Shown piece after piece: positions 9,076 to 50,600 of a stretch of 64,000 nt of DNA. Where the stretch lies: assembly GCA_964035545.1 (NCBI GenBank), contig OZ037767.1, positions 16,945,781 through 17,009,780 of the forward strand, given 5' to 3'. The notes below the pieces were generated by a model. That model saw nothing but the letters and a program-made list of their open reading frames with translations. It was not told the DNA's origin and ran no database searches. A program made the position numbers and the translations under genes. Source of the stretch: Bugula neritina. Taxonomy: Eukaryota > Bryozoa > Gymnolaemata > Cheilostomatida > Bugulidae. Each line of letters begins with the position of its first letter. The stretch's first letter is position 1.

Positions 9076-9114
9076 CTGAAGTACATGCGTAACCATAGTA
9101 TAAGCCTAGCTGTA

Positions 9115-19143: not shown

Positions 19144-19338
19144 AAACAGGTGTGTAAGGAACTATCATACTAACATTTCACATAATAATTACATCATATT
19201 ATGAGATATATTGCATGGTACGCGATCTTAATTACAACACATTATTGCATTATTTATATTATTATAATGAATATTTACTATTAGTATTATGCATTTTTAG
19301 TTGTTTCACAAATCCTATTGTTTCCATCAGTTTTCAAG

Positions 19339-20914: not shown

Positions 20915-21400
20915 TTCTTGTTAGACGTGCACTGATCAGGCGACCCAGCGCATCCAACTTCATAACTCTGAAAAAATCAACCCCTTGAAGAGATAAGAAA
21001 ATTGTGCTGACAATGCACTGAGCTACCTGTCAGTTTACTGAGATGGTATACTGTTCTAGCAGTGAGACCTCGATCTTTTTCGGAGTGAAAACTAGCTCTG
21101 AGTTCATTTTAGTCCTTCCACAGAGAAAAAATTGCGCAGACCTAAGAGGACTCCATTCACCATTAGCCATGTACGCCAGGCTGCGCGAGAAATGACAGTA
21201 AAAGTTGTAGTGGCAATTAGTTTTAGAGTTATATAACACAATGCAGGGGTCATTCATCTTGTATTTTGTATATAGGTTATATCTTGCATTCTGTATATAG
21301 GTCACATGTTGTATATAGGTCACATCTGCTTGCCAATGTGGACGTCGAAGCAGGTGTTGAGGTTTATGTGCACATAATGACTACGATGTAATAAACCAAT
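20915..21400 (+). pseudogene. Decayed exon 4 and exon 3 copies of the 18-exon gene (unit A)
   Basis: About 20,920-20,993 matches the end of exon 4 (GACCCAGCGCATCCAAC) but ends AGAGATAAG, a lost donor. 21,063-21,192 matches exon 3: after the acceptor it reads SETSIFFGVKTSSEFILVLP, like exon 3's SETSIFLRVRPGSEVTLVIP, and then shifts frame, with the donor GAGGTGAG changed to GAAATGAC. 21,313-21,365 matches the start of exon 4 (GTCACATCTGC). Order and spacing differ from the main gene, so pieces have been rearranged. Confidence 0.75.
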
Positions 21401-21655
21401 GGCTTCACATTTGATCTCGATTATAAGAAAATTCAGATTGCATGTGCCATCTTACTACTAGTATCATATCGATATTTTCTAATTCTTTGCTTCTCCACAG
21501 TCAGGTTGGTTTTTACTTGCATATACTAGTGCTCTGAAGTCACAGTTTAAAGGAAACAATTTTAAAAGATGGGACGTCTAACCAATTAAATAAGGGTTTT
21601 TGTGATGAACAGATATATGTAATTATATCAACAGTTTACCCAACATCCACCAGCC

Positions 21656-22420
21656 ATGCTTGGGCGACTGTGGAATTTTCTCACTGGTGATGAAGATGCA
21701 CTTCTGAGCCAGACCAGTTGATAATTGTTTCTTTCTAAACCATTGCTATACCATGCATAAATTGTTAAAAATCTCTTACTCATATACGATGGATGGATCA
21801 AATTGCCATTCAACTGCACAATTATGATACTGTCATGCACAAAAGTAGGTCACCACGTATTAATGTAAAGTTGCAAATCACCCCCATATAAGGTACCGTA
21901 TTTAGGCGTATCCAAAGGAAATATATGCAACACTGCTGCAGGCTGCATATTGTAACATCCATTCTGTTTTTATTTCAGCTCTGCTCAAAGCACCTGCTTA
22001 AGTGCAACCAGCCCTGGGGGTATGCATAAACTTTTTAGTGTAAAAAACACTGCCAGCTACTCCAATCTTGCAAAGCCCTTTTCTTAAAAGCAAGGGTAAA
22101 AAATTAAACTGTACTATAAGTATTGAATGCCAATACCAAAGGTATAAAGTGCATGCTGAAAATGATATCCGTTCTACTCCTATCTCGGTTTTTGAAGAGC
22201 GAAACCCCAATCTTCTTCAAAGTGGGACCTGGCTCAGAGTTTAATCTGGTCATTCCATAGAGCCAGAAATCTCGTGGACTCAAGATTTATGCTAAAAATT
22301 GTCTCCGTTTTCACACGGTGAAATCACAATCTTCCTCAAAGTGAGACCTAAATCACAGATTACTCTGATCAGTTTACAGATGAAAAAATCGTGTAGACTC
22401 AGGACTACTCGAGAAAAGTG
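21656..22420 (+). pseudogene. Decayed copy of exons 1, 2 and 3 of the 18-exon gene
   Basis: Exon 1 copy at 21,656-21,717 reads MLGRLWNFLTGDEDALLSQT, with the donor GT changed to TT. Exon 2 copy starts at 21,979 and reads SSAQSTCLSATSPGG onward in the expected phase to a TAA at 22,085. Two exon-3-like stretches follow, at about 22,190-22,275 and 22,317-22,417. The gene order 1-2-3 is kept here but each piece carries a disabling change. Confidence 0.75.
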
Positions 22421-22610
22421 AGTAACAGAAGTGGTGGCGGCAAGTAGTTTCATAGTCTTAAAATTTACATAACACAATACAGGAATCATTTATATCATGT
22501 TGTACCCTGCATATAAGTCACATCTAGTTACCACTGTAGATGTGGAGACAGGAGTTGAGAGGCCAAGCTAGAATTGTGCTGAGCAGCTCCCTAATGCATT
22601 TAACTGCGTG

Positions 22611-25540
22611 CCTTTATCTGGGAAACAAGGTTTTAGAAATGGTGGGAAATTGGAATAAATTCAGGTTAACAGGTCAGGAGGTTGATTAGAGTACTGTAGG
22701 TAACTATTAAAGTAGCGTTTTACATAATTATTACATCGTAATATATCATGTGACACATTTAATGTTGCTATCTTTATTACAATAAACTATTGTCATATAA
22801 ATTATAATATTTAGTTGTAGGGCCTGCACATATAAACGCAAAGCAGAGATCACCCATGTGGCTATAACTTTTAACAAAAACCTAGACACCTAATAAGCAT
22901 TCAAAGAATTGCGTTTGAAAATCAATAGAGGCAATTTGCTATGCCCATCGTACCTGTAAACATCTGTACACACACCTTTATTGGCAAGTAGCTAACACCT
23001 GCACACCAATGTGAACATTGAGACAGGAGTTGTAAGATTCTGTAGGACATTTGCCATTCGGTCTGCTTAGTGCATTCAACCAATTGTTTCTGAGAAAAGC
23101 AACTGCCAAAATTGGTAGAAGATTGCAACGGATTCAAGCTGGTTAAATGTTATATAAAACTATACAAAATGTTTATATCCTAATGCAGCCAGAGCCAAAT
23201 CGCCCAACAGTTGAGGAAAATTGTTGCAGGGAAAAAATGTTCACTTTGATAATACCCTAAGCAGCCGCAAGCCGAGCAGCAAAGACGTTGCTGTACAACA
23301 TGAGACAGCGCATGGGGTCCTGCGGTGGTGAGTTCAGCATCCTGTCCCATGCAGTCATCTGTGCCCATAGAAATGATTTTGCTCTGCCAATGTTATACTG
23401 TTTGGAGCAGCAAACAGGTTTGTAAGGAACTATTATACTAACATTTCACATGGTTATTACATTATATTATGAGATATATTACATAGTACGCGATCTTTAT
23501 TACAATGCATTATTATCATTATTTATATTATTATAATGAATATTTACTATTAATATTATGCATTTTTAGTTGTTTTACATATCCTATTGTTTCCATCAAT
23601 TTTCAAGGATTTACGTGATTGCCATCCACAGTATACAATTAGAAAATGTGACTGGAAAAGTCATTTAGCTGGACACAAAAGAGGCTTTTGGAAAAAAAAG
23701 AGAATGTAAAAAAGACTACTCTGAAAAATGCTAGTCAACACTGTGATGTTCTGTACAAAGCATTATTATGCTCTAACTAGAATAGGAGATTAGCCAACAC
23801 AGTGAGTGAAGAGCACGGCAACAAGTGCTGCTTCAGATGCTACTATCAGGTGAAGTGTCCCCATTCTTTAAGAATGAAAGAACCACAAGCCACTAATTTT
23901 AAGGAGTCATTCTATCCTGAGCAGAGGTAACACAGTTACACTTTATCATATGCACTGTTTTCTACTACCAGTGATATAAAATATATACAGGGTATATGCT
24001 GAAAATCAATTATCCTGCTCTCAATCCATATCTGCATACGTATGCTGTGAAACCTGATATTTTCTTAAAGTAAAAACTAGCTCAAATGATGACTGATGTG
24101 AAAACTGGGCTTGAAAAACAGACAAGTGTGTTAAACACAACCAAAAACTTAAACGAAAGCTTGCAACTTGTCAACTATCAGAAAGAAGGAGAACATGAAG
24201 AGCCAAAATTTATATCAAGAACCTCTCTTGCCACGACATGAAAAAACTCACTTCCCAGCTTGTTATCTATACAGGTATTGCTGGTTTCATAAAATAGGGT
24301 CACTATTTGAGCATCAAATACTAGCAAGCTAATCTCATGTTTTTATAAATTACAGAAGCTATTTCATGTGTCATAGGGTATTTTTTTTGCAAAATGTTTA
24401 AAACTGTACCACTCTTTCTCTCTTAAATCATTTGCAGATGTGAAACACCTGCGAATTATATGAGATGTTGACAAGCAAAAGCTTTGTTGGTGGCCAAAGA
24501 GTCAAAGGTTTGACACACCGTGGAAGATTAAAGATGAGAGAAGATGATGTGTAAATGTCATAAAATGAAAAGTATCAGTTAACTATGTTTCAGTAACATC
24601 ATCTATTTTTAAGCAATGAGTAGTAAGCAGTGTTAAGATAATCTATGCAAGTTTTAATATGTTTAACCAATGTGCTTATCGAAAACAAAGCACACTGGAA
24701 ATTCTTACTAGTGCTTTAAAATGGTATGAGGTAAGTTTTGAAAGGAACTTCCCATTTTATATCATTCCCCTGCAAAAGATATTCCCAATATTAACAGTCG
24801 ACAAAATATTCAATTTTTGTTGTTATTGCAGTCAAATTAATGACTGGATTAAAGTGATTTGTATGACGTATGCATTTCTTTTATGCAAAATTACTTTTCA
24901 CTTTTATATGCTCATGGTTGTAGTATACTTGTAAAAGTTTTTTATATTGCTCTGTGAATAGTGGTATTCATTTAAAGCCAATGCTTTTTGAACTAGTAAA
25001 ATAAACTTGGTATTAAATTATTCTTGTAAAAACCAATTATTTTGTTTTATTATGCAATCATTTGAATTGTCCGCTTCATTCTAGATGCATTAATCTAAGT
25101 CCAACTGTTGGGTCATACCATAGTAAAAAACTTAAATTTTTGTTTAGAAGTTTTTTATAATGTGCTAAATGTAGCACAAAGGTTTCTTGTTAGACGTGCA
25201 CTGATCAAGCGGCCCAGCGCATCCAACTTCATAACTCTGAAAAAATCAACCCCTTGAAGAGATAAGAAAATTGTGCTGACAATGCACTGAGCTACCTGTC
25301 AGTTTACTGAGATGGTAAACTGTTCTTGCAGTGAGACCTCGATCTTTTTCGGAGTGAAAACTAGCTCCGAGTTCATTTTAGTCCTTCCACAGAGAAAAAA
25401 TTGCGCAGACCTAGGAGGACTCCATTCACCATTAGCCATGTACACCGGGCTGCGCAAGAAATGGAAGTGAAAGTTGTAGTGGCAAGTAGTTTTAGAGTTA
25501 TATAACACAATGCCGAGGTCATGTATCCATCTTGTAAATA
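22611..25540 (+). repeat. Tandem segmental duplication, unit B (partner of unit A)
   Basis: Direct repeat of 18,463-21,400 (landmarks given there). Within it lie the exon-5-like copy at 23,187-23,410, the exon-8-like copy from 23,608, the exon-2 3' copy at 23,830-23,945, the exon-4 end at 25,190-25,262 and the exon-3 copy at 25,332-25,470. Both units share the same stop in the exon-8 copy (GTCACTTAG and GTCATTTAG), so the exon was already dead before this duplication. Confidence 0.85.
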
Positions 25541-25760
25541 GGATATATCTCGTATCCTGTATTTAGGTCTCATTTCATATCCTGTATATAGGTCACGCCG
25601 TGTATCTTGTATATAGGTCACATGTTTTGTCCTGTATATAGGTCCCATCTTATATCCTGTATATAGGTCACATCCTGTATCTTGTTTATATGTCATGCCA
25701 TGTATCCCATATGTAGGTTACATTTTGTATCCTGTATATAGGTCACATGTTGTATACAGG
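25525..25760. repeat. Short tandem repeat in exon 3-4 intron copy (CTGTATATAGGTCACAT)
   Basis: About nine irregular units of roughly 25 bases with the core CTGTATATAGGTCACAT. Single or few units of the same sentence sit in the matching intron at 21,255-21,325, 26,160-26,210, 26,600-26,655 and 36,830-36,950. In the main gene the last unit supplies the acceptor of exon 4 (TATGTAG then GTCACATC). Confidence 0.8.
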
Positions 25761-25882
25761 TCACATCTGCCCACCAATGTGCAAATCGATGCAGGTGTTG
25801 AGGTTTCCTGTCAGACATGCGCTGATCAGACGACTTGGTGCATCCAACTTCTCGTCTTTGAAAAAATCAACTCCCCGAAAGG
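25760..25882 (+). pseudogene. Open copy of exon 4 with intact splice sites
   Basis: After TATACAG the phase-2 frame is open for 41 codons, begins RSHLPTNVQIDAGVEVSCQT and ends at GG followed by GTAAGA. It matches exon 4 of the main gene (RSHLLTDVGVEAGVEVSCQA). Its length of 123 is a multiple of three, so phase 2-2 is kept. The exon-3 copies around it (25,332; 25,953; 26,399) are frameshifted, and another exon-4 copy at 26,199-26,326 has a TAG and a lost donor. It is labelled a pseudogene because no intact neighbours were found, but this exon alone is not damaged. Confidence 0.6.
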
Positions 25883-25952
25883 GTAAGAAAATTGTGCTGA
25901 CAGTGCACTGAGCTACCTGTCAGTTTGCTGAGATGGTATCCTGTTTTTGCAG

Positions 25953-26700
25953 AGAGACCTCAATCTTTTTCAGAGATAAAACTAGCTCTGAGTTCATTTT
26001 AGTCATTCCACAGAGAAAAAAATTGCGCAGACTCAGGAGGACTCCATTCACCATTAGCCATGTACTCTGGGCTGCACGAGAAAAGTGAGTAAAAGTTGTA
26101 GTGGCAAGTAATTTTAGAGTTATATAACACAATGCAGGGGTCATGCATCACTCTTGTAAATAGGTTATATCTTGTATCCTGTATATAGGTCACATGTTGT
26201 ATATAGGTCACATCTGCTCACCAATGTGGAAGTCGATGCAGGTGTTAAGGTTTCCTGTCAGACATGCGCTGATCAGACGACTTAGTGCATCCAACTTCCT
26301 GTCTCTGAAGAAATCAACTCCCTGAAGAGATAAGAAAATTGTGCTGACATGCACTGAGCTACCTGTCAGTTTGCTGAGATGGTATACTGTTTTTGCAGTG
26401 AGACCTCGATCATTTTCGGAGTGAAAACTAGCTCTGAGTTCATTTTAGTACTTCCACAGAGAAAAAATTGCGCAGACCTAAGAGGACTCCATTCACCATT
26501 AGCCATGCACGCCAGGCTGCGCGAGAAATGACAGTAAAAGTTGTAGTGGCAAGTAGTTTTAGAGTTATATAACACAATGCAGGGGTCATTCATCTTGTAT
26601 TTTGTATATAGGTTATAATCTTTCATTCTGTATATAGGTCACATGTTGTATATAGGTCACATCTGCTTGCCAATGTGGACGTCGAAGCAGGTGTTGAGGT
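25953..26700 (+). pseudogene. Two further decayed exon 3 / exon 4 modules
   Basis: Exon-3-like copies start at 25,953 and 26,399 (GAGACCTC...GGACTCCATTCACCATTAGCC), and exon-4-like copies at 26,199 and 26,658. Donors read GAAATGAC or AGAGATAAG instead of GTGAG or GTAAG. The modules are about 0.45 kb apart and resemble those at 21,063 and 25,332, showing local tandem copying of the exon 3-4 segment. Confidence 0.7.
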
Positions 26701-26984
26701 TTATGTGCACATAATGATTATGATGTCATAAACCTATGGCTTCACATTTGATCTCGATTTGTCTGTAAGAGAATCCTTTTTGCTGTCTTACTATTAGTAT
26801 TATATCGATATTTCTAATTCTTTGCTTTTCCACAGTCCGGTTGATTTTTACTTGCATATACTAGTGCTCTGAAGTCACTGTTTAAATGAAATAATTTTAA
26901 AAGATGCGATGTCTAACCAATTAAATGTAGGTTTTTGTGACAAACAGATATATGTAATTATATCAACAGTTTACCCAGTTTACC

Positions 26985-27860
26985 CACATAATGATTATGA
27001 TGTAATAAACCTATGGCTTCACATTTGATCTCGATTCGTCACTAAGAGAATTCAGATTGCGTGCCGTCTTACTTTTACTAGTAGTATCATATCGATATTT
27101 TCTAAATCTTCACTTCTCCACAGTCAGGTGGGTTTTTACTTGCATATACTAGTGCTTTGAAGTCACAGTTTAAATTAAATAATTTTAAAAGATGCAACTT
27201 TTAATCAATTAAATAAAGGTTTTTGTGACAAACAGATATATGTAATTATATCAACAGTTTACCCAACATCCACCAGCCATGCTTGGGCGACTGTGGAATT
27301 TCCTCACTGGTGATGAAGATGCACCTCCCAGACAGACCAGGTCAGAGTTGTCTTCTTCCTAAACCATTGTTTTACAATGTAGTGAAATAATCAAAATCTT
27401 CAGTTATTTATGATGAATAAAATAAGCTGCAGTTTAAACAAGCTAGTAGTTAGCATACATTTCCATAATATAGCATGAGTACCTCTATATTTCATAGATG
27501 TTTGGGGAAAGGGTTATGATTTATATCCTAGCAAATAAAGTTTGTGTTCAGCTATGTATGTTGTCATGTGATCAAAATGCTAGTAAGACGCCACAAGGTA
27601 ATGTAGACCTCTAGACCAACTCTCATATGACACTGCTGTATCTGGAAGTAACATAGTAAATATAACACTGCTGCAGGCTGTGTTTTGTTACATTCATTCT
27701 CTCTTCACTTAAGCTCTGCTCAAAGCACCTGCTCTGTTGCAACCAGCTATGGGAGCGTGCATCACTCATTTGGAGAGTGTGTTTCTTGTTCCCAGAGATA
27801 GGAAAGTTTTATTGTGTTATATAGGTTGAGTGCTTGTATCAAATGAATAAATTTTATACC
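26985..27860 (+). repeat. Recent duplicate of the 5' region of the 18-exon gene (partner 35,369-36,180)
   Basis: The sequence from CACATAATGATTATGATGTAAT through exon 1, intron 1 and the start of exon 2 matches 35,369-36,115 almost base for base, at an offset of about 8.35 kb. This is the youngest copy in the upstream graveyard. A partial copy of the same flank also lies at 26,707-26,965 and 21,370-21,640. Confidence 0.88.
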
Positions 27861-27963
27861 GAAAATTATTTATGTTTTCACGCAGTGAAACCTCAATCTT
27901 GCTCAGAGTGAGACCCAGGACACCCTTCACCATCAATCTTGTTCGCCGGGCTACTCGAGAAAG
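27279..27963 (+). pseudogene. Nearly intact copy of exons 1-3 of the 18-exon gene
   Basis: Exon 1 copy 27,279-27,340 is identical in length and reads MLGRLWNFLTGDEDAPPRQT with a good donor GTCAGA. Exon 2 copy 27,714-27,797 is open (SSAQSTCSVATSYGSVHHSF) but its donor is AGAGATAGG instead of AGAGGTAGG. Exon 3 copy 27,886-27,963 is open, shorter (78 against 132) and phase-preserving, reads SETSILLRVRPRTPFTINLV, and ends in GTGATT. The only clear lesion is the exon-2 donor. An exon-8-like copy at 28,337-28,430 has lost two bases and its donor. Confidence 0.65.
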
Positions 27964-28336
27964 GTGATTACCCAAAGTTCTGACAGCAAGTCGTTTTAAG
28001 GTGGGTTAAGAGGTCCAGTTAGACTTCTGCAGATTATTTTCCTCAATAGATTCAATTGCTTATTTTTTGAGAAAGGTTCCAGAAAAGGTAGGAAACTGTC
28101 GTAATTAACTTCAGGTCAACAGGTCAGGTCTGTTTTTTAGACCAATATTAGTAGCTATCATTAAATTGGCATTTTACATTATCATTACATGGTATTACAT
28201 CATGTGTTACAGTAACTATTACTTAATCATTATTACAATGCATTGTGGCCATTAGTTATATTATTACAATAAATTTTTGCCATCAGTATTATATATCATC
28301 AGTTGTATTACATATTCTATATTGCACCCCTTCCCT

Positions 28337-35627: not shown

Positions 35628-38600
35628 ATGCTTGGGCGACTGTGGAATTTCCTCACTGGTGATGAATATGCACCTCCCAGACAGACCAGGTCAGAGTTGT
35701 CTTCTTCCTAAACCATTGTTTTACAATGTAGTGAAATAATCAAAATCTTCAGTTATTTATTATGAATAAAATAAGCTGCAGTTTAAACAAGCTAGTAGTT
35801 AGCATAAATTCCCATATTATAGCATGAGTACCTCTATATTTCATAGATGTTTGGGGAAAGGGTTATGATTTATATCCTAGCAAATAAAGTTTGTGTTCAG
35901 CTATGTATGTTGTCATGTGATCAAAATGCTAGTAAGACGCCACAAGTTAATGTAGACCTCTAGACGCACTCTCATATGACACTGCTGTATCTGGGAGTAA
36001 CATAGTAAATATAACACTGCTGCAGGCTGTGTATTGTTACATCCATTCTCTCTTCACTTCAGCTCTGCTGAAAGCAACTGCTCTGTTTTTACCAGCCATG
36101 GGAGCGTGCATCACGAAGAGAAGGCGAGTTCCACCAGTCTCGCAGAGCCCTTCTCTTGTGAGCAGAGGTAGGAAACCTACACCGTATTAAATGTACTGTG
36201 AGGTATATACTGCATGCTGAAATCACCTCTGTTCTACCTCCATCTCTGTTCTACCTCCATCTCTGTTCTACCTCCATCTCTGTTCTACCTATATCTCTGT
36301 TCTACCTCCATCTCTGTTCTACCTCCATGTCTGTTCTACCTCCATCTCTGTTCTACCTCCATCTCTGTTCTACCTCCATATCTGTTCTACCTCCATGTCT
36401 GTTCTACCTCCATCTCTGTTCTACCTCCATCTCTGTTCTACCTCCACCTCTGTTCTACCTCCATCTCTGTTCTACCTCCATCTCTGTTCTACCTCCATCT
36501 CTGTTCTACCTCTATCTCTGTTCTACCTCCATCTCTGTTCTACCTCCATCTCTGTTCTACCTCCACCTCTGTTCTACCTCCATCTCTGTTCTACCTCCAT
36601 CTCTGTTCTACCTCCATCTCTGTTCTTACAGTGAGACCTCCATCTTCCTCCGAGTCAGACCTGGATCTGAGGTGACTCTAGTCATCCCCCGGAGGAAGAA
36701 ACCGCGCAGGCCCCAGCGGACTCCATTCACTATCAGCCCTGTTCGCCGGGCTGCGCAAGAGAGGTGAGTAAAAGTTGTAGTGGCAAGCGGTTTTAGAGTT
36801 ATATAACACAATGCAGGGGTCATTAATCTTGTATCTTGTATATAGATTACATTTTGTGTCTTGTTTGTAGCTCACATTTTGTATCCTGCGTGTAGGTCAC
36901 ATGTTGTATCCTGTATATAGGTCATATTTTGTATTCTGTATGTAGGTCACATCTGCTCACTGATGTGGGCGTCGAGGCAGGCGTTGAGGTCTCCTGTCAG
37001 GCGACTCAGTGCATCCAGCGCTCTGCCTCTGTAGACATCAGCTCCCAGAACAGGTAAGAAAGTCGTACTGTTAGTATACTGAGATACATATTAGTATACT
37101 GAGATACCTGATAGTATACTGAGATACCTGATAGTATACTGAGATACCTGATAGTATACTGAGATACCTGATAGTATACTGAGATACCTGATAGTATACT
37201 GAGATACCTGTTAGTATACTGAGATACCTGATAGTATACTGAGATACCTGATAGTATACTGAGTTACCTGTTAGTATACTGATAGTATACTGAGATACCT
37301 GATAGTATACTGTTAGTATACATGTTTACAGTTCAGAACCCGGCTGTGTGGACAGATCTGTCCAGTGCGCCACAACCAGCCAGGCTCCAGCCTCCCAGCA
37401 CAGTCGGGCAAGATCTCGTCTGGAGAGAAAGACGTCCACTGCTGGCACCACACTGAGCAGCAGAAAGCCGAGCGGCAGCGGCGTTGCTGTACCACATGAA
37501 AGGGCGACATGTGGTCCTCAGGTGGTGTTAAGTCAGCAGCCTGTTCCAGCCACCTGTGCTCAGGGGAATGTGTTTGCTATGCAAATGGCATACCACCTTG
37601 GGCACCTGACAGGCCTGCTGACTACAGCACTGTAAGTAACCTCTCTTTAACACTTGTTGACACCTAGCAGTGAGCTTACTTCCCTAAGTAATTTACTTTT
37701 GTGTCCTATTGAGTGTAAATGACACACTGCAGTATTGAGTTAACCCAGCAGACCTGTGGTGTAATGGTTAACCCTCCCGCTTGCAAACCAGATGCTTCGG
37801 GTTCCACTCCCGGTGGCGGCAAAATTTTATAAGTTTATAATTTGTCACTTGCAGCAACACTAAGGAGTCAGAGAAGAGAAAGGTAGACGCCAGCACTTTA
37901 GTCTCAACACGCTATCCTTCTCTGAAACTACCCAACACCAGATCCGCTTTCACTATCAGCCCTCTCCGCAACTCTGAATCGAGAAGGTAGAAAAGTAATG
38001 GAAATCATGTCAGTGAATACTATTGCTTGCAGACTGATAACACCTACCTGTTGGTTATGGTTACACTTCTTGTACCTATCATCACGTTGTGGTGTTCTGC
38101 TTCACGTGTGTTCTCTATTACAGGCCTACTATTGGGTCGCGTCTCTTCAGAAGGCAGGCTGATATAAGTATAGCCGGGCAGCTCACCCTGAGCTCTGGTG
38201 TTCCAAGAGAGACAACTCTGTGCTCAACCATCGGTCACTCTGATTGGTCCAGTGAGACACTCTGGAGGACATCTGTTCGCAGTGCTCAGAGGTAAGGAGG
38301 GTTCCTTTATTATAATTGGAATATTGGTATATAATTATATTATCATAATAATGTCATATAATGTCGCTATTAGTGTAATATATTATTATATAACAATACC
38401 ATTAGTATAACATATTATTGTAATATTATATAACATTACCATTAGTATAATATTTAGTGGAATGTTATATATTACTATTGATATTAAGCATCGTATCTCA
38501 TTGTCTCTCCAGGACTTACGTGATTCAAAATCACTTTATCCAATCAGAGAGCATGACCGGGACTGAGCTGGATACAGAGGAAGTTTTCCGGGAAAAGAGG

Positions 38601-41600
38601 TGAGAAAATGTAAAAGATGAATTCATAGCTGTAAAATATTCTACTGGCCCTACTGTGATATACTGTATATAGTATTACTACTCTGTGGTATACTGTACAT
38701 AGTATTACTACTCTGTGGTATACTGTATATAGTATTACTACTCTGTGATATACTGTATATAGTATTACTACACTGTGATATACTGTATATAGTATTACTA
38801 CTCTGTGATATACTGTACATAGTATTACTACTCTGTGATATACTGTACATAGTATTACTACACTGTGATATACTGTACATAGTATTACTACTCTGTGATA
38901 TACTGTATATAGTATTACTACTCTGTTATATACTGTATATAGTATTACTACTCTGTGATATACTGTATATAGTATTACTACTCTGTGATATACTGTATAT
39001 AGTATTACTACTCTGTGGTATACTGTATATAGTATTACTACTCTGTGATATGCTGTACATAGTATTACTACTCTGTGATATACTGTATATAGTATTACTA
39101 CTCTGTGATATACTGTATATAGTATTACTACTCTGTGATATACTGTATATAGTATTACTACTCTGTGATATACTGTATATAGTATTACTACTCCGTGATA
39201 TACTGTACATAGTATTACTACTCTGTTATATACTGTACATAGTATTACTACTCTGTGATATACTGTATATAGTATTACTACTCTGTTATATACTGTATAT
39301 AGTATTACTACTCTGTGATATACTGTACATAGTATTACTACTCTGTGATATACTGTATATAGTATTACTACTCTGTATATAGTATTACTACTCTGTGATA
39401 TACTGTATATAGTATTACTACTCTGTGATATACTGTATATAGTATTACTACTCTGTGATATACTGTACATAGTATTACTACTCTGTGATATACTGTACAT
39501 AGTATTACTACTCTGTGATATACTGTACATAGTATTACTACTCTGTGATATACTGTATATAGTATTACTACTCTGTGATATACTGTATATAGTATTACTA
39601 CTCTGTGATATACTGTACATAGTATTACTACTCTGTGATATACTGTACATAGTATTACTACTCTGTGATATACTGTACATAGTATTACTACTCTGTGATA
39701 TACTGTATATAGTATTACTACTCTGTGATATACTGTATATAGTATTACTACTCTGTGATATACCGTACATAGTATTACTACTCTGTGATATACTGTATAT
39801 AGTATTACTACTCTGTGATATACTGTATATAGTATTACTACTCTGTGATATACTGTACATAGTATTACTACTCTGTGATATACTGTACATAGTATTACTA
39901 CTCTGTAATATACTGTACATAGTATTACTACTCTGTGATATACTGTACATAGTATTACTACTCTGTGATATACTGTATATAGTATTACTACTCTGTGATA
40001 TGCTGTATATAGTATTACTACTCTGTGATATACTGTACATAGTATTACTACTCTGTGATATACTGTACATAGTATTACTACTCTGTGATATACTGTACAT
40101 AGTATTACTACTCTGTGATATACTGTATATAGTATTACTACTCTGTGATATACTGTATATAGTATTACTACTCTGTGATATACCGTACATAGTATTACTA
40201 CTCTGTGATATACTGTATATAGTATTACTACTCTGTGATATACTGTATATAGTATTACTACTCTGTGATATACTGTACATAGTATTACTACTCTGTGATA
40301 TACTGTACATAGTATTACTACTCTGTGATATACTGTACATAGTATTACTACTCTGTGATATACTGTACATAGTATTACTACTCTGTGATATACTGTACAT
40401 AGTATTACTACTCTGTGATATACTGTACATAGTATTACTACTCTGTGATATACTGTATATAGTATTACTACTCTGTGATATACTGTATATAGTATTACTA
40501 CTCTGTTATATACTGTATATAGTATTACTACTCTGTGATATACTGTATATAGTATTACTACTCTGTGATATACTGTATATAGTATTACTACACTGTGATA
40601 TACTGTACATAGTATTACTACACTGTGATATACTGTATATAGTATTACTACTCTGTGGTATACTGTATATAGTATTACTACTCTGTGATATACTGTATAT
40701 AGTATTACTACTCTGTGATATACTGTACATAGTATTACTACTCTGTGATATACTGTATATAGTATTACTACTCTGTGGTATACTGTATATAGTATTACTA
40801 CTCTGTGATACACTGTATATAGTATTACTACTCTGTATATAGTATTACTACTCTGTGATATACTGTATATAGTATTACTACTCTGTGATATACTGTACAT
40901 AGTATTACTACTCTGTGATATACTGTACATAGTATTACTACTCTGTATATAGTATTACTACTCTGTGATATACTGTATATAGTATTACTACTCTGTGATA
41001 TACTGTACATAGTATTACTACTCTGTGATATACTGTATATAGTATTACTACTCTGTGATATACTGTATATAGTATTACTACTCTGTGATATACTGTATAT
41101 AGTATTACTACTCTGTGATATACTGTATATAGTATTACTACTCTGTGATATACTGTATATAGTATTACTACTCTGTGATATACTGTACGTAGTATTACTA
41201 CTCTGTGATATACTGTATATAGTATTACTACTCTGTGATATACTGTATATAGTATTACTACTCTGTGATATACTGTACGTAGTATTACTACTCTGTGATA
41301 TACTGTATATAGTATTACTACTCTGTGATATACTGTATATAGTATTACTACTCTGTGATATACTGTACATAGTATTACTACTCTGTGATATACTGTACAT
41401 AGTATTACTACTCTGTGATATACTGTACATAGTATTACTACTCTGTGATATACTGTATATAGTATTACTACTCTGTGATATACTGTATATAGTATTACTA
41501 CTCTGTTATATACTGTACATAGTATTACTACTCTGTGATATACTGTATATAGTATTACTACTCTGTGGTATACTGTATATAGTATTACTACTCTGTGATA

Positions 41601-44600
41601 TACTGTACATAGTATTACTGCTCTGTGGTATACTGTACATAGTATTACTACTCTGTGATATACTGTACATAGTATTACTACTCTGTGATATACTGTATAT
41701 AGTATTACTACTCTGTGATATACTGTACATAGTATTACTACTCTGTGATATACTGTACATAGTATTACTACTCTGTGACATACTGTATATAGTATTACTA
41801 CTCTGTGATATACTGTACATAGTATTACTACTCTGTGATATACTGTACATAGTATTACTACACTGTGATATACTGTACATAGTATTACTACTCTGTTAAC
41901 AGCCTGGTCGCCAGCTCCAGCTCGACTATAGTGTCCAGCTCAGAAGGGTCAGGGCGGAGGTCAGCTACCTACGTAGTCTCTAGACGGAGCAGCGGGTCAG
42001 AGGTCAGCTTGACTAACACAGTCAGCGAGCTGAGGTCACTGACAGAACTCGAGGAAGGGAGGTAAGAACTCACTACGAGCAAGTGTAGCTTCAGGTTGGA
42101 TATGTATTGTGAGTACTGTGCTACTGTGGGCTCTCGTGTAGAATAATTGTCAGTAAAGAGACGTTACTTTCCTCACACAATTAGTATATATGAGGTGGGT
42201 GCAGTAATGAATGAATTGAGAAAAACTGGTGTTCTAAATTAGAAATGTACCATAAATAATTATGTTCTCACGAGAATTTCAACCTTCGCCCCAAACATAA
42301 ACTTTACATTAAATTTTAAGAACTTGGACTATCTCAATTTCTCCAACTACTGCTCCTAAATGTAGTATATATAGTTTGTAATGCCCCGTTATCAATATGT
42401 TTATTAGCTCAGCTCTCAGTCTCTCCTCCAGCCCACCTCGCAGCCTCTCTCTCAGCCCACCTCTCAGCCTCTCTCTCAGCCCACCTCGCAGCCTCTCTCT
42501 CAGCCCACCTCTCAGCCTCTCTCTCAGCCCACCTCTCAGCCTCTCTGCTCCTATACCTGACACGACACTCAGCTCTAGTCTCTCTCCAGCTTCGAGCTCG
42601 GCTGTAAGGGTTGTCTCGGGTTCCGCTCGCAGCCTCGCTCTCAGTGTGGCTCGCGGATTCCAGCCAGAGATGCCGTCAGCTTTGAGCTCAGCTGCGGCTG
42701 CTCCTGAAGACCAAAGTTCTCTCATAGAGTCAGTGACATATTTGGTCGATACGGCAACACACGACTCTACATGTACACAGAGTGGTGCTTCTTCTGTACC
42801 CAACACCTCCGCACTCAGAGCTCCTCCACTGCTAGTCTTCAGCTCAGCTCTTGGGTTTGTGTCCAGCTCCTCAATAAGTTCAGATTGTAGTCTGGCTCAG
42901 GGAGTGACTACTGGCACGTTTTCAGCCTTGAGCTCCACTTGCAGTTCTTCTATGAGCCCCGCTGATAGCCATGGAAGTCCACCTTCTGCTGCAACACCCT
43001 GTGACTTGAGCTCGGCATGCAGTTCTGTCCATAGTCTCGCTGCCTCCCTTGGACACCCGCCATCTCCTGGCACACCATCTGCCTTGAGCTCGGCCTGTAG
43101 TTCTTCTATAAGCCTCACTGCCAGTCTAGGAGCTCTGCCATCTCTTGGAACTCCATCACTTTTGAGCTCGGCTTGTAGCTCTATTCTGAGCCTTGATGAT
43201 AGCCATGGAGATCCATTGGCTGCTGCAACACCATCTGACTTGAGCTTGGCTTGCAGTTCTGTCCATAGTCTCGCTGCCTCCCTTGGACACTCGCCATCTC
43301 CTGGCACACCATCTGCCTTGAGCTCGGCTTGCAGTTCTTCTATAAGCCTCGCTGCCAGTCTAGGTACTCCGCCATCTCCTGGCACATCATCTGCCTTGAG
43401 CTTGACATGCAGCTCTGTTCTGAGCCTTGATGATAGCCATGGATGCCTGCCATCTCCTGGTACTCCGTCAATCCTTAACTCGGCTTGCAGTTCTACTACA
43501 AGCCTCGCTGCCTCTCTAGGAGTTTCACATTCAGCTTTAAACTTGGCTTGTAGCTCTTCTATAAGTCTCACCGCCAGCCATGGAAGTCCTCCATCTGCTG
43601 CAACGCCATCAGTCCTGAGCTTGGCTTGCAGTTTGGTTACAAACCTCAATGATAGTCATGGAGATCCACTGTCTTTTGCGACACCGTCTGCCCTGAGCTT
43701 AACACCAAGGTCAGTTGACGAGACTGCCTCCAGCTCTTCTTCAACTTCAGCAGGAACTGAATCCTGCTACACATTGCAAGACACTCTCATCCCGACTGTT
43801 CGCCCAACACGCTCTCTATTTTCCTGTGACACTTTCGACTGTGAGATGGATTCGTCGGCCGGGGAAATCAGTAATCATGTCTCTTCATCTCAAAAAAGTT
43901 TGCACAGGTTAGAAAGTAATATTTGTTAGTAAAATTTGTTGAAGTACTGCTAAAATAATTTTACAATTATTCCCCCGATAAATAAAGCTAGAAAACACAT
44001 TTCATCTACTTTAATCTACTTTAATCTACTAAGTTGATGGAAAAAAGCTCTTCTGTCGTCTAGAAGCAGCCACTTATGTGTTTAGCTACTTTCTCAGTCC
44101 CTCCATGTTATTCCTGCTACATACTTCTTATAATAAATTGTACCTTTACAGTGTGACTGTGAGCGTTAGTGATAAGGCCATTCAGGCCGATCCAGTCCAC
44201 CATGACGGTCCAGCCCATAAGGCCATCCAAGCTGACCCGGTTTGCCAGGCTGATTCAGCCCACAAGGCTATCCAGGCCAATTCAGTCCACCAGGTCGATT
44301 CAGTCTACCAGGACAGTCCAGCCCAACAAGCTGGTCCAGCTCATGAGGCCATCCAAGCTGATTCAGTTCACCAAGCTGATCTAGCCCACCAGGCCGGTCC
44401 AGCCCACGGTGATGTCAGACCTACTCAGAGCCACTCTACTCAGTGTGCGCACCATGTTAGTGACACGCTGTCTGCTGCTGTGCAAACTCTAGACAGCAAA
44501 GTTACTGAGGAGAGGTAAGAAAACTCCATATAGTTTATTTGTTGTATTTTCACTTCTTCCTCCATTAATATTCATATTCCGTATTATACATGTATTATCT

Positions 44601-47260
44601 CTTTATTTCTTTCAACTTCACTTCTTTACACACGCGTCCAGTTCAGCATTTTGACAGCGTATGCAGTGTACTGCCATCATATCTCTATGCCGTTCTTCAG
44701 CCTCTTTTCTATTTATGTTCAGCTCACCTCCAGCTGGTCCTCCGACACCAGAAGACAAAGCTAGTCCTGCTGGTCTAGACGGTAAGGTGGAGTCTCCAGT
44801 GGCTGTGCCAGGCTGCAGCAGAGAGAGGTGAGTAGCTCGTTGTGTACGGCGTAACTCAGTCTGATGTACTTCAGCTCTACAGAGCTTAGTTGTCCGTGTG
44901 GAGCCACGTTTAATATATATACTCTTGTCATCTATAGATCTACCACTAGCCTCGCTGTCAGCCACTTCTTATATGGTGACGGTCCGAACTCGAACCGCAG
45001 TTCCAACCTTGACTCTGTTTCCACTTCCTCTCTGGAATCTGTCCATAGCTCGGCTCTCGGCTATACAACCACGACCAGTGTCGATGATTATTCACCTCAG
45101 CCAGATGTCCGGGGATGGACTCTCAGTCCAGTACACAGTTTCACCTTCTCTGGGAGTTCCAACTCTGAGAGTAATCATGAGACTTTCGTCAAAGAACACT
45201 TCGAGCCAAGGTTAGAACCTCACCATATGCTGTTTCCTGCCTGTATCACTTGTCAGCGTAGAGAAAGCTGCTAACAGAAAGTGTAGATAGCATAGCAGCT
45301 GATTCATTATTTCTCATTTTAGTACATCCAGACCACAACCACGCTGGAGAACTCTAATGTCTGGGATGGCTGTTCCTGTTAGCAGACTCATTAGGAGGCC
45401 TGTCACCATTCCTCCCACCGTCAGGTATGTCTACCACCAAGTTATGTAACATTGTCTGGTACGTAATTTTCTCTACAGCTGTATAGTTATGTCAACCACT
45501 AAGTTATGAACTCCCTTCAATGTTGAAGTGAGTTGAGTTGTAGTTGTAGTTGTAGTTGAGTTGTAGTTGAACTTGTTGTTATATTCTCCAGACCGGCTGC
45601 CCACGCTGTGTATGTTGGTGGAGCACCTCCAGCAGTGCAGTGTGTTACCGCTTTCCTGCCCACTCCACGGCTCTATGGAGCACCAGCCATGAGAGCTAGC
45701 TCAAGCAGAGGGTTGAATGGAGCGAGGTAGGACTAAAACATGTACAGTTTTGGTGGGAAAAAGTATTTCATAATAAAATAAGTCTACTGGTGTATTTGAA
45801 ATGTGCTGTGTAGTAAATTATTTACGTCATAAACAGAATCTGGTTATATTTATATTATTATAATACAAACATGATCCAATTATATTCTGTCTTTCACAGC
45901 ACTGTCACCCGATGCCTTTGCCGAAAGGAAGTTCCGGCAAGCTCGATGCTGAAGCGGTATAGCTCAGAGCACGTGTTTGACCTTGGCCCTTCTACTAAGA
46001 GATCGTCTGACACCTATTCGAGATCTAGTAGAAAAGGGTGAGCACATTTTCTCAACTGTGTTTGCGTTTAAGATTCAGAGCTGTGAATTATATAACTTAT
46101 GCTCTCTCAATACATACAACTCTCAATATAGGTGTAATCCATTGGGTGGGTGTACCAATACTTATACTGAAGTTGAGTGTAAACTTGTTCATTCTACTAT
46201 GCTCATGATATATTAGTTTGAGCTGACTACAACTACGTGTCTGTATTTTTAGCGCCAATCTTCTATGTTCATGTCACGGGGAGCACACCGACTGTGAGGA
46301 AAGGTAAGAACTGTAGAGTTTGCTTTCTAATGAGGGATATGTGTTGCAATGGTTGTATTTCATTTCTACCACTGAACCTTTTATTTGTAAAGTTTTCCAG
46401 CTGTTTGTCAGCATGCATTGGAGTTATTTCCTGTTGAGGTACAGCAGCTGAGTAGTCAGTATTGCTGTGAAATCTGAACATCAATAGAGTTGTAATACTT
46501 TAGTTTGATACCTTTTAGCACAATCTCTGAGAGTGAGTCACTGCAAGCCTGTGCTGGAAAGGGTAAGCAGCCGGCTAAGAAACCGCTTAGAAAGGGACCT
46601 CTTAAACAAGGTTCTCTCACAAAAGGACCTCTTAAGAAGGGACCTCTCACAAAAGGACCTCTTAAGAAGGGACCTCTCACAAAAGGACCTTTCAAAAACG
46701 GACCTCCTAAAAAAGGACCTCTTACAAAAGGACCTCTCACAAAAGGACCTCCTAAGAAAGGACCTCTTAATAAAGGACCTCTTACAAAAGGACCTCCTAA
46801 AAAGACACAGCTTAGAAAGTCATTAACTAATGGCAGAGCACCAGCTTCCAACCGCCAAGCTGGAGGTGTTGGAAATCGTCTGGGGCCTCCAAAAAGAGGA
46901 GCTTTGAGCAAAGCACCAAAATTAGGGGCAAAGACCCCTGTAGCTCCTAAAAGAAATGCACCTAGTTCCGGGAGCAAGCTAGGCTCACGTGCTGCAGCGT
47001 CTAAAAAGAAGCAGTCATGTCCTGATGTGTTCACCAGGCTGTCAAGTACACCTCTGCGCGGCGCACCCAGGCGGCTGAACAGCACTCCAGCTGTCAAGCC
47101 ACCAGTCAAGTCAAAAACGTCTCGGCCAGCAACCTTACTTAGTCAGCAGTCCTCTTCTGCCCCACAGCGCAAGATGAGGCAGTTGAATGCCTCGAAAGCA
47201 TCGGCTAATAATCTAGAGAAGCGTTGTCCAGTGCTGGAACAGCGCATTCGCAAATCATAG
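35628..47260 (+). CDS. 18-exon gene for an unrecognised 1,553-residue repeat-rich protein, all introns phase 2
   Basis: Exons: 35628-35689, 36063-36167, 36632-36763, 36946-37053, 37332-37631, 37855-37986, 38124-38291, 38513-38599, 41903-42061, 42408-43907, 44152-44514, 44723-44827, 44938-45210, 45323-45424, 45592-45726, 45900-46037, 46253-46303, 46519-47260 (stop TAG). All have AG before and GT after. The lengths sum to 4,662 and the joined frame is open throughout. Every intron splits a codon after its second base, usually AG|N, so an Arg or Ser marks most junctions. Exons are clearly richer in GC than the introns. No signal peptide, membrane segment or known domain was seen. The start MLGRLWNFLTGDE could form a short amphipathic helix. 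The rest is Ser/Pro/Arg/Lys-rich and probably disordered, with FTISPxR sites (proline-directed kinase type) in exons 3 and 6. Function unknown. Exon 1 was taken as first because its ATG and length are conserved in four copies; 5' non-coding exons are possible. Confidence 0.8.
36226..36626. repeat. 17-bp pyrimidine-rich minisatellite in intron 2
   Basis: About 24 units of TCTGTTCTACCTCCATC with few changes. The array stops five bases before the CAG acceptor of exon 3, so it forms a 400-base extended polypyrimidine tract on the sense strand. Homologous introns of the decayed copies (for example 24,000-24,030) hold only one or two related units. Long open frames here come from the repeat and are not genes. 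Confidence 0.95.
36632..36763 (+). CDS. Exon 3 of the 18-exon gene (related to exon 6)
   Basis: 132 bases, encoding residues 56-100. It contains a basic patch IPRRKKPRRPQR and then TPFTISPVRRAAQER. Exon 6 (37,855-37,986) has the same length and phase and ends SAFTISPLRNSESR, so the two probably arose by exon duplication. The basic patch is a candidate nuclear localisation signal and SPVR a candidate proline-directed phosphorylation site (inference). At least six decayed copies of this exon lie at 21,063-27,963. Confidence 0.8.
37064..37318. repeat. 20-bp minisatellite in intron 4
   Basis: About 12 units of GATACCTGATAGTATACTGA with minor changes. It begins shortly after the exon-4 donor and ends about 13 bases before the exon-5 acceptor TTTACAG. 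Confidence 0.95.
37332..37631 (+). CDS. Exon 5 of the 18-exon gene
   Basis: 300 bases, residues about 136-236, open in phase 2. Contains RARSRLERKTSTAGTTLSSR and later VFAMQMAYHLGHLTGLLTTA, the most hydrophobic stretch in the N-terminal part of the protein; it is short and has no flanking features of a membrane helix. The donor is CT|GTAAGT, unlike the AG| of most other exons. Two dead copies exist at 18,911 and 23,187. Confidence 0.78.
37751..37821 (+). tRNA. tRNA-like sequence inside intron 5, probably a pseudogene or SINE head
   Basis: The A-box-like TGTGGTGTAATGGTTAACC and B-box-like GGGTTCCACTCC are spaced as in a tRNA. The T-arm pairs (TCGGG with CCCGG). The anticodon-arm region CCCGCTTGCAAACC would place TGC in the loop, but the anticodon and acceptor stems do not pair well, so a working tRNA is unlikely. 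No second copy was noticed in the window. Confidence 0.4.
38647..41897. repeat. 30-bp satellite array of 3.25 kb in intron 8
   Basis: About 108 tandem copies of TACTGTATATAGTATTACTA followed by CTCTGTGATA. Most differences are single C/T or A/T changes (TACAT or TATAT). Units shortened by about 12 bases recur at 39,371, 40,828 and 40,945, and identical multi-unit blocks recur near 39,400-39,770 and 39,960-40,190, which suggests block amplification. The array ends directly in CTCTGTTAACAG, the acceptor of exon 9. Because the unit length is a multiple of three and contains no stop in several frames, it yields open frames of up to 628 codons that are artefacts. Confidence 0.97.
41903..42061 (+). 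CDS. Exon 9 of the 18-exon gene, directly after the satellite
   Basis: 159 bases, open in phase 2 (SLVASSSSTIVSSSEGSGRR ... SELRSLTELEEG), Ser-rich. Donor AG|GTAAGA. Its acceptor is built from the last, altered satellite unit. Confidence 0.78.
42408..43907 (+). CDS. Exon 10 of the 18-exon gene, 1,500-base Ser-rich repeat exon
   Basis: Encodes residues about 418-918. It opens with a 30-base repeat (SLSLSPPL or SLSLSPPR, 42,415-42,545). From about 42,920 to 43,710 it carries ten units of 26 residues of the form TPSALSSACSSSISLAASLG plus six more. The units cycle in threes (SVHSLAASLG, SSISLTASLG, SILSLDDSHG), a 234-base higher-order repeat. Each unit has one conserved Cys in S-A-C-S-S. The exon is exactly 500 codons long and phase 2-2. 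Low-complexity, probably extended or glycosylation/phosphorylation-rich; no enzyme motif seen. Confidence 0.82.
44152..44514 (+). CDS. Exon 11 of the 18-exon gene, Ala/Gln/His repeat exon
   Basis: 363 bases, residues about 919-1,039. About eight repeats of roughly 15 residues, built on KAIQADPVHHDGPAH and shorter QADSVHQAD pieces, cover 44,178-44,410. The repeats are followed by a unique tail (SDTLSAAVQTLDSKVTEE). Phase 2-2, donor AG|GTAAGA. Confidence 0.8.
44723..46303 (+). CDS. Exons 12-17 of the 18-exon gene
   Basis: Six short exons: 44723-44827, 44938-45210, 45323-45424, 45592-45726, 45900-46037 and 46253-46303 (35, 91, 34, 45, 46 and 17 codons). Introns are only 110-215 bases. Exon 13 is Ser/Asn-rich (SSNLDSVSTSSLESVHSSAL). 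Exon 14 is basic (RLIRRPVTIPPTV). Exon 16 has RCLCRKE and a Ser/Arg-rich end. Exon 17 reads ANLLCSCHGEHTDCEE, with four Cys/His residues close together. All are symmetric, so any could be skipped without breaking the frame. Confidence 0.75.
46519..47260 (+). CDS. Exon 18, terminal exon of the 18-exon gene, basic KGPL repeats
   Basis: Residues 1,307-1,553, ending RIRKS before TAG. From 46,592 to 46,806 there are about 14 five-residue units (KGPLT, KGPLK, KGPP), often as a ten-residue pair, giving a strongly basic, proline-rich tract. The rest is also Lys/Arg/Ser-rich (RAAASKKKQSCPDVFTRLSS). The composition suggests binding to nucleic acid or another acidic partner (inference). The last 140 bases are copied twice downstream (48,125 and 51,843). 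The minus strand is also open across the repeat but is a shadow. Confidence 0.8.
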
Positions 47261-47699: not shown

Positions 47700-50600
47700 G
47701 CACATTTTCTTTCGCTATTCAAACCTTTATTTCTTCTCCTCTTTGATGAAAGAATATAACTCAATGTGACTGGTGATCTTTATTAGTAAAGGTAAGCTTT
47801 TCTCTCTGTTTGTATTTGTTTATGCTCTTGCTGTTGATTACAAAATCAATATGTATTTAAGTCAATTACAAGATCTGCTAATTTACTAATATAAAGAGAT
47901 ATTTATTAAAGATTAGTGTGAGCAGCAATCTTTTTTTCTGAACAATAGCAGGCCAGCTATGTTTTAAATATATATATATTGTTGTAGATTTATTTCGAAA
48001 AATGAATATTACACTACGGCTGGTGTCCTCACATATTTAGTTGGGTTAAATGAAGATTATTCTCTGAAACAGTTTTGCACCTCAGACCTTTACTAGTTGG
48101 TTCCACTAAAACGCACAAAGAAGTATTGGCCAACAACTTTGCTTAGTCAGCAGTCCCCTTCTGCCCCACAGCGCACGGTGAGGCAGTTGAATGCTTCGAA
48201 AGCATCAGCTGCTGATTGAGAAGAGCATTGCCTTGTGCTGGAAAAGCGCGTAGCAGAATAGAGCAGAGCTGGACTCTACAAATACAGCAAACTCTGAACG
48301 ACGTGAATGGTTCATCTACTAAGGGTAGACGCGCCTCGTCCCGTAGTGATGCTGTGGTTTACCAGGCACATCAAGACGGTCATCTGATTACTGGTTCTTG
48401 AGAAATTATCAGATAGCTAGATAGAGACACCAAACTCTGCAGCTGACCAACATTTCTCATTCTCTCCTCTTTCGGCACATTTTCTTTCGCTATTCCTTCT
48501 TCTCTCTGGTTGAATTTGACTGAGGATCTGTATTAGTGAAGGTAAAGGTAAGCTTTTCTCTAAATTTTAAAACATTATTTTCTGTTTGTATCTTTTTTTA
48601 CTATAGAAACGCCACCTCTTGCTGCTTAGTACAAAACATGCATTTCGGTCAATTGCAAGATTTGCTAACTCACAGATATGAAGGGTTAAATACTAAAGCT
48701 TGATGTCAACAGTAATCCATTTTTCTTTCTTAACAAAAACAGGCCAGCTATGCATATTTTATTATTAAATTATATATTTTGTTGTAGATTTATTTCAGAA
48801 GAATGAATATCACACTAAGGCTGGTATCCTCACATATTTGGCTGAGTTGAATGAAGATTATTCTCTGGAATAGTTTCACACCTCAGGACTTTACAGAAGA
48901 AACAAACGTTCTGTTAAGAACTTCTTTCTGTTGGGCAAATGTCTGAATATTCATCACTCGAGATCACAATTGCACCTGAACTTCTGAATTTCAAGCTGAC
49001 TGCAATACTGACTCAAGCTTGGCAGTGTTCAGGTAAGCTTTTTTAATATTTCTTTTTTCTAATTATCTACATCGTGACTGAGTAAAATTTAGTTAGAATA
49101 CTTTTTATAACTTTTTTGAGCCAATTATGATTACAAGCTTATAGAAAATATACTTAGTTTAATATTTATGCACACTTTTCATCATCATTACCTATACTGG
49201 TAATCAATCTTGTAGATGATACAAATCCTTTTAAGGCTGGTAAAAACACTACTAGGTGTGCATTGGATGAGCAACATATTCCTCATTCTCTACTCTGTAT
49301 GTTGACATTCACACATCTACATCTTAGTAAACTGAAGAGTAGTTTATTAGTGGATCTTCTTAAAAATCCTCTACAATAAATACTCGGCTGGACACACCAT
49401 GTCTTTCACTGTTGGTCAGATGACTCCAAAACTCCATATAGAGGTGAGTCCTTCTTCTATATTCTCTTAGCATTTTGTTTCTTGACTTCCTATAATATCC
49501 GGTTAGAAGGTTTCTCAGCATGTTTCTGTCAGTGTTTTTAAATGCATACTTTTTAACTTTTCTCTCCTATCATGCATAGAACGTTCTTTTAAAGGTTGTT
49601 GATACAATTTTTAGAGAATAGTTTAATTTCTGCACCTAATAGACATATTAAATATTATAGATGGTGATATCACTTGTTGGCTGGTACAATACTACATTGT
49701 TAGTGGGTTCTCAACTCTGCAAATTTGCACTTCTGGTGCATCTCTCCTGGATTTCAAGTAGACGGAACAGTATTTTACTTCTCAAAACATTTACTAGATT
49801 GCATTTCTCAATGAGCCAACAGAACATGTCTCCAATTCTTATTTTCGAATTTGGGGATGGAAGAATTTAGGCTGGAGTTGAGTCAGATGTGGATCATCTT
49901 ACTAACATAGAACATTCTATTCTACCAGAGCAATGGTGAGTTTGTGAAATTCTTCTAAAAACTGTGATCTGCTGTGAGGACAGACTTGTGTGAGTATTCG
50001 ATGGCAATAGTTGACGTAATTCTTTCAAGAGTTAAAGTTGCTGTGGTAAATGATTATTAATATGTTATGATGATTTTTGCAGAGTCTCTCACTGAATCTA
50101 TATTACTTGTCTGACTGGTACAATCAATGATAGATGATGATTCCACTTTCTTCTCCTTATAAATGTCTGGATTCTATTAATAGACTGTCACAGATATCTG
50201 CTGGTCTCAGAGCCTCTCCACTGGCAACTCTGTTCAGAGTTTAACTTCTTCCTATCTTGTTATAATATAGGTGAGTTCATGTAGTAGCAGATAAGGCACA
50301 ATTTAATTTCTCTCATTTCCATTATCATTGCACAATGGTCAGGCTGTCTATAAGTTTGACTATGAAGATGTATTATAAGTTCTATCAGAAACTATTATAT
50401 CTTGCTCAGGCACTTCAGTAAAACAATATTAAGCTAGTTAATATCAAACAGGTTTAAAAGTTTGAGTTGTCTACAGCATTGCTATTTCATCGAAACTTAT
50501 GCTTCAACATTCTTATATGACTTTTTAGTTTCTGCACACATCAGACAAGATCTTCATCTTGATTTCTCACAATACTTGCTGGGCTGAGATAAAACCCGTT

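Follow-up and report, generated by a model that had tools for sequence, protein, structure and literature searches.

In modular proteins that are secreted or extracellular, symmetric 1-1 exons are a product of exon shuffling. Their uniform phase is explained by the addition of exons into an intron of the same phase, and phase 2 accounts for ~20% of introns in human non-secretory proteins (PMC5308243, in the portion drawn on here). Across eukaryotes, phase 2 was the least common intron phase in 9 of 10 species, according to the part of PMC1574350 available to us. A second described system, the micro-exon genes (MEGs) of schistosomes, comprises genes with many exons, mostly multiples of three, where in-frame skipping is possible; their exons measure 6 to 81 bp and their proteins are secreted (PMC10526429, likewise in the portion drawn on here). 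Among the papers on phase 2 that were listed, judged by titles and the starts of abstracts, we found no description of an animal gene with all introns in phase 2, although one may be in print.

The gene described here lies at positions 35,628-47,260 of a 64,000-nt stretch of chromosome 3 of Bugula neritina (Bryozoa, Cheilostomatida; C3:16945781-17009780; assembly of 215,847,546 bases in 295 contigs), and we refer to this whole stretch as the window. It is a gene of symmetric exons, a known kind, but in the rarest phase. Exon boundaries were set by reading the sequence, and the exons were joined by a script. The features are as follows:

35628..35689, plus strand: exon 1, containing the start codon and 62 nt of coding sequence; also in both paralogs
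36063..36167, plus strand: exon 2, 105 nt; in both paralogs
36632..36763, plus strand: exon 3, 132 nt, FTISPVR module, kin to exon 6; in both paralogs
36946..37053, plus strand: exon 4, 108 nt; in both paralogs
37332..37631, plus strand: exon 5, 300 nt, junction codon CTC; in both paralogs
37855..37986, plus strand: exon 6, 132 nt, FTISPLR module; in both paralogs
38124..38291, plus strand: exon 7, 168 nt; in both paralogs
38513..38599, plus strand: exon 8, 87 nt; in both paralogs
38653..41896, no strand: minisatellite, 30-bp unit, ~109 units, occupying most of intron 8
41903..42061, plus strand: exon 9, 159 nt; in both paralogs
42408..43907, plus strand: exon 10, 1,500 nt, Ser-rich tandem repeats with a 24-bp minisatellite at the start; metagenome protein P0001 retains both ends
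44152..44514, plus strand: exon 11, 363 nt, KAIQADPV repeats; length varies among copies
44723..44827, plus strand: exon 12, 105 nt; in both paralogs
44938..45210, plus strand: exon 13, 273 nt; in both paralogs
45323..45424, plus strand: exon 14, 102 nt; in both paralogs
45592..45726, plus strand: exon 15, 135 nt; in both paralogs
45900..46037, plus strand: exon 16, 138 nt, junction codon GGC; in both paralogs
46253..46303, plus strand: exon 17, 51 nt; in both paralogs
46519..47260, plus strand: exon 18, 742 nt including the stop codon, KGPL repeats; matches Bugula protein P0002
47484..47489, plus strand: AATAAA, possible poly(A) signal by sequence match only
18376..27970, plus strand: nearby copies, fragments of exons 1-5, mostly broken
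25,320-26,700, plus strand: tandem exon 3-exon 4 cassettes inside the fragment region 18376..27970
27,267-27,352, plus strand: near-identical exon 1 fragment, 98.8% identity, donor retained
48116..48249, plus strand: exon 18 fragment, 82% identity
51832..51965, plus strand: exon 18 fragment, 85% identity

Joining the 18 exons yielded a coding sequence of 4,662 nt, i.e., 1,553 codons, with a single stop, at its end, which bears out the one open frame that a preliminary description of this locus had put forward. All 17 introns were of the GT-AG type and in phase 2, the lengths of all 16 internal exons were divisible by three, and the junction codons were AGN in 15 of 17 cases (the remaining two being CTC and GGC), all of which agrees with the earlier account of multiple-of-three internal exons and of phase-2 introns mostly of the AG|N form. 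Its further statement that exons can be skipped without breaking the protein holds arithmetically for all 16 internal exons, each of which would leave the frame intact if skipped. An upstream in-frame stop was located 27 bases 5′ of the ATG, and the phase-2 frame was the sole open frame in 14 of the 18 exons, with one additional open frame in exons 1, 2, 13, and 17. The uniform phase persisted when the phase was left free: Upon scoring GT..AG pairs of any phase within 60 bases of the model sites while keeping both reading frames open, the model pair ranked first in 15 of the 17 introns, the higher-scoring alternatives for introns 9 and 10 were likewise phase 2, and no pair of another phase scored above the model in any of the 17 introns (the closest competitor, in intron 12, scored 9.2 versus 10.7 for the model). 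The splice matrices were generic and self-written, with no training on this genome; scores below 1 resulted for 4 of the 17 acceptors and for 1 of the 17 donors, and an acceptor 24 bases downstream within exon 10 outscored the model acceptor.

We found that this gene exists as three tandem copies that arose by tandem gene duplication. Copy 2 (C3:16923081-16936464; window coordinates -22,699 to -9,316) and copy 3 (C3:16876007-16886564; window coordinates -69,773 to -59,216) are both complete and lie upstream, outside the window, where they encode 1,516 and 1,576 codons, respectively, in 18 exons in the same order, with 17 GT-AG phase-2 introns and one final stop each. Over the three copies, all 54 exons and all 51 GT-AG phase-2 introns thereby agree, the exon set is unchanged, and no exon gain or loss was found among these three full copies. 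Fifteen exons, as well as exon 18 in total, were equal in length across the copies. The lengths of exon 10 (1,500, 1,407, and 1,407 nt) and exon 11 (363, 345, and 525 nt) differed, each being divisible by three, i.e., the repeats change length in frame among the copies. Between the window gene and copy 2, the 17 introns were 91 to 100% identical over the aligned bases, with intron 8 spanning 3,303 nt in the former versus 5,076 nt in the latter. Introns 8, 2, and 4 consist largely of minisatellite (38653-41896, 36227-36626, and 37068-37282, with periods of 30, 17, and 20, respectively), and a segment of intron 5 (37750-37830) resembles, by eye, a tRNA-derived short interspersed element.

The gene is under purifying selection. 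Pairwise dN/dS values (Nei-Gojobori, own script, computed pairwise from a three-way alignment with bootstrap intervals) amounted to 0.395, 0.365, and 0.393 (intervals 0.30-0.51, 0.28-0.49, and 0.29-0.54), and a two-way alignment of the window gene with copy 2 gave 0.41 (0.30-0.57). For this latter pair, dN/dS was 0.21 without exons 10, 11, and 18, and exon 18 alone was approximately neutral (dS 0.033, dN 0.029). As judged from the sequence, the window gene is a real protein-coding gene under constraint, since three intact copies share the same structure and dN/dS is 0.37-0.41.

How does this gene compare with the described systems? The earlier suggestion of a likeness to schistosome micro-exon genes stood for the multiple-of-three rule, which all 16 internal exons follow, and for nothing else: Unlike the 6- to 81-bp exons given for MEGs in the cited portion of PMC10526429, the internal exons measure 51 to 1,500 bp here, and just 1 of 16 (exon 17, 51 bp) is ≤81 bp, the others ranging from 87 to 1,500 bp. 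Because the exon size fails in this manner, we do not regard the locus as a micro-exon gene. In addition, the protein is 1,553 residues long and no sequence relation was seen; MEGs are an analogy and not the family of the window gene. With the 1-1 exons that exon shuffling produced, the gene shares a uniform phase, which for those exons is explained by exon addition into a same-phase intron (PMC5308243, in the part drawn on), but its phase is 2 (17 of 17) rather than 1, and it contains no Pfam domain above cut-off and no folded module.

The occurrence of phase 2 at 17 of 17 introns, preserved in three copies, is odd and needs a historical cause, because phase 2 is, as far as the consulted portions of the above sources go, the rarest phase in 9 of 10 eukaryotes and makes up ~20% of introns in human non-secretory proteins. 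By arithmetic, the chance of such an outcome is 8e-9 at a phase-2 frequency of one third and 1e-12 at 20%. As a same-genome control, we evaluated 36 neighboring exon pairs at six CCT chaperonin loci, which gave 24 introns, some with weak splice scores, in phases 0/1/2 of 12/4/8; 8 of the 36 pairs were without a junction and 4 were skipped (more than 12 profile positions missing between them). Composition was evaluated from the AG dinucleotides in the coding sequence: Phase 2 was the commonest phase both for AG (163 of 396) and for AG followed by a pyrimidine (C or T; 121 of 229) and applied to 14 of 73 AG|G sites, corresponding to chances of 2.8e-7, 2e-5, and 6e-13 for 17 of 17. These chances are uncorrected for the picking of this gene from the window, and upon multiplication by 20,264, the published gene count of the Bugula neritina genome (PMC11480708, in the portion drawn on), most remain small, which does not hold throughout for 2e-5 and 2.8e-7. 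The gene shows one phase throughout, beyond what composition yields, as is characteristic of genes built by symmetric exon addition.

Other matches came up for marker genes in this assembly. Genes of the CCT/TCP1 family with in-frame TAA and TAG were present on contigs C71, C90, C139, C186, C195, and C211. Some ciliates read TAA/TAG as Gln, and these contigs perhaps derive from a ciliate that lived on the colony. In addition to its match on C295, the mitochondrial contig, COX1 occurred near full length on chromosome 6 (C6:11174072-11175412) and in broken form on chromosome 4 (C4:5169166-5169759), perhaps as nuclear copies, and further COX1 matches on the small contigs C17, C65, and C196 perhaps stem from other organisms.

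The similarity of exons 3 and 6 that had been reported before proved real: Both are 132 nt long, FTISP is located at residue 33 of 44 in both, and their alignment score was equaled by 19 of 20,000 shuffles, which supports the view that the two are probably products of a duplication. Among the 105 pairs formed by exons 1-9 and 12-17, this pair was the only clear one, with a weak score for exons 3 and 9, and exons 2 and 12 have the same length (105 nt) without clear likeness; growth by exon duplication, as it had been proposed for the gene as a whole, was therefore borne out for exons 3 and 6 only. We also considered WTLSPVH of exon 13 as a relative of FTISP and rejected it, as its offset differs and a wider likeness is absent.

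The many exon copies that had been noted nearby do exist and correspond to exons 1-5 and, piecewise, to exon 18, but they are mostly broken and are not alternative exons of the window gene. Fragments of exons 1-5 precede each of the three full copies. In a tally of rows counted by hand, with partial copies left out, the 18 full-length copies of exon 3 outside the three genes comprised nine of 131 nt (frame lost), three of 129 nt, and six of 132 nt, two of which retain both AG and GT; of nine exon 4 copies readable throughout, eight contained in-frame stops. Tandem exon 3-exon 4 cassettes numbered three within the window, six ahead of copy 2, and two ahead of copy 3. Because of these tandem cassettes, we conclude that exon units duplicate at this locus, albeit in decayed sequence. 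On the 3′ side of the gene, 47261-58000 is a long tandem-repeated stretch with exon 18 pieces, in which 10.7 kb contain 20 strong donor-like sites. It has the look of successive non-coding, exon-like blocks, which are perhaps copies of the 3′ end of the gene that have decayed. A relative of this stretch, 634-12374, is an 85 to 95% copy of 50478-63528 and sits after copy 2. Elsewhere in the window, two frames at 32161-33597 appear, by eye, to encode a PHD finger and the endonuclease of a broken non-LTR retrotransposon.

Considering all of the above, we lean toward an orphan Bugula gene in three tandem copies that grew by the addition of symmetric 2-2 exons, with a Ser-rich product that is probably a mostly disordered intracellular scaffold or phosphoprotein. 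In such a history, an ancestral phase-2 intron would have received additional symmetric phase 2-2 exons, which could be copies of the gene's own exons (as may be the case for exons 3 and 6) or new sequence that was taken in. The frame demands that any exon entering a phase-2 intron be 2-2, which would leave both resulting introns in phase 2, and every intron would therefore end up in this phase. Three intact copies under purifying selection, phase 2 being best at all 17 introns with the phase left free, the mixed phases of the CCT genes, the insufficiency of composition, the likeness of exons 3 and 6, and the tandem cassettes count in favor of exon addition. Counting against it are the single clearly related pair out of 105, the constant exon set among the three copies, the mostly broken state of the duplicating cassettes, the phase-2 acceptor-like sites that the Leu-Ser coding repeats themselves bear, and the lack of an exon source elsewhere in the genome among the best candidates scored in whole-genome searches. 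For exons other than 3 and 6, addition would be the history that the uniform phase suggests.

Alternatively, the introns may have been inserted later, at AG sites of a long Ser/Arg-rich coding sequence, a scenario that we deem unlikely but retain, because the chances of 2e-5 and 2.8e-7 do not all stay small when multiplied by the gene count. AGN codons (Ser, Arg) place AG at codon positions 1-2 and would favor phase 2, also for sites derived from Leu-Ser repeats, in line with the 15 of 17 AGN junction codons and with phase 2 being the commonest phase for AG and for AG before C or T. Moreover, the 24-bp minisatellite at the start of exon 10 contains 11 acceptor-like sites in 12-base steps, all in phase 2 and any of them frame-keeping. 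Over all exons, acceptor-like sites in phases 0/1/2 numbered 19/22/31, but subtraction of this minisatellite left 19/22/20, i.e., no phase-2 excess. The three composition-based chances given above for 17 of 17 also weigh against insertion, as does the fact that exons 3 and 6 resemble copies of one exon.

Less probable still is that the phase is old and that the exons descend from a few founders that diverged beyond recognition, the arrangement being maintained by frame-keeping exon skipping: The likeness of exons 3 and 6, the weak score for exons 3 and 9, and the equal lengths of exons 2 and 12, whose likeness is unclear, would fit such an origin, but no clearly related pair beyond 3 and 6 emerged from the 105 tested. 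That the phase-2 model is an artefact of splice sites picked to yield phase 2, or a pseudogene, we consider very improbable, since the low generic scores of a few splice sites and the better acceptor within exon 10 are set against three open copies with an identical exon set and dN/dS near 0.4, phase 2 being best at all 17 introns with the phase unconstrained, and genuine fragments nearby that do carry stops and lost splice sites.

As for the product, the protein is rich in Ser (303 of 1,553 residues) and contains 38 SP/TP sites, in five of which the second residue after the Pro is basic, and the product of exon 18 carries a net charge of +54 over 247 residues. On a charge-hydropathy plot, 11 of the 18 exon products fell on the disordered side, and 7 of 18, including that of exon 10, fell on the ordered side and count against disorder, which is a guess from composition. 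Exon 1 reads MLGRLWNFLTGDEYAPPRQT and, by eye, is without a long hydrophobic run. Exons 10 and 11 may serve as tandem-repeat spacers, and the strongly basic Lys-Pro tail could bind nucleic acid or filaments. Taken alone, the assignment as a scaffold or phosphoprotein that is intracellular, disordered over most of its length, and basic in its tail is one that we make tentatively and with considerable doubt; we infer the disorder, the cell compartment, the molecular role, and any use of exon skipping. The sequence [TVI]Q[TCAV], which we take to be the motif of dynein light chain LC8 type, occurred 9 times (reached in 3 of 5,000 shuffles) versus 3 times without exon 11 (977 of 5,000 shuffles), and we did not use it as evidence because the excess stems from exon 11. 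A sigma-70 promoter scan was uninformative for an animal gene.

Genome searches with exons 1-9 returned at least 54 matches, and those with exons 12-17 and the first part of exon 18 at least 21 (both at E up to 0.1, among the best candidates scored), all of them at 16.858-16.993 Mb of chromosome 3, and no match was found in the 60 kb downstream of the window. The absence of a recognized domain noted earlier was confirmed: The sole Pfam matches with E up to 1 were Extensin_1 and Plasmodium_HRP, which lie on repeats far below the cut-offs and were rejected as identities, and a PDB sequence search with exons 1-9 gave no match at E up to 1. A protein search with residues 1-420 found none among 8,000 candidates scored, and Rfam gave nothing at gathering scores within the window. 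Only two relatives were found outside this genome. The first, a metagenome protein of 407 residues (P0001), shared 54% identity over 88% of a query with the exon 10 frame and continues into the flanking introns at both ends like the window frame does (MFISSALSL at the start, SLHRLESNI near the end); unlike in the window gene, a single exon (exon 10) was seen, with fewer repeats. The second, EB796_001983 (P0002), a Bugula neritina hypothetical protein of 215 residues, was found with a query that joined exons 13 and 18 and was 73 to 75% identical to exon 18 of the three copies, covering most of this exon and no other; it is annotated short, as it begins within exon 18 and stops before the last part of that exon. 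Its prefix EB796 is presumably that of the draft Bugula neritina genome of PMC7576161. A long repeat-rich orphan gene can thus be recorded merely as a short fragment.

In its boldest form, exon addition would make this a lineage-specific gene built almost wholly by phase 2-2 exon accretion, at a locus that is still making cassettes, with a protein varied by in-frame skipping and by acceptor ladders in its coding repeats, i.e., the equivalent, in phase 2, of both micro-exon genes and 1-1 exon shuffling, which we regard as a rather improbable extension. With intact copies beside decayed cassettes, the locus is well suited to the study of exon gain in new animal genes, where a comparison with other bryozoan genomes can separate exon addition from intron insertion.
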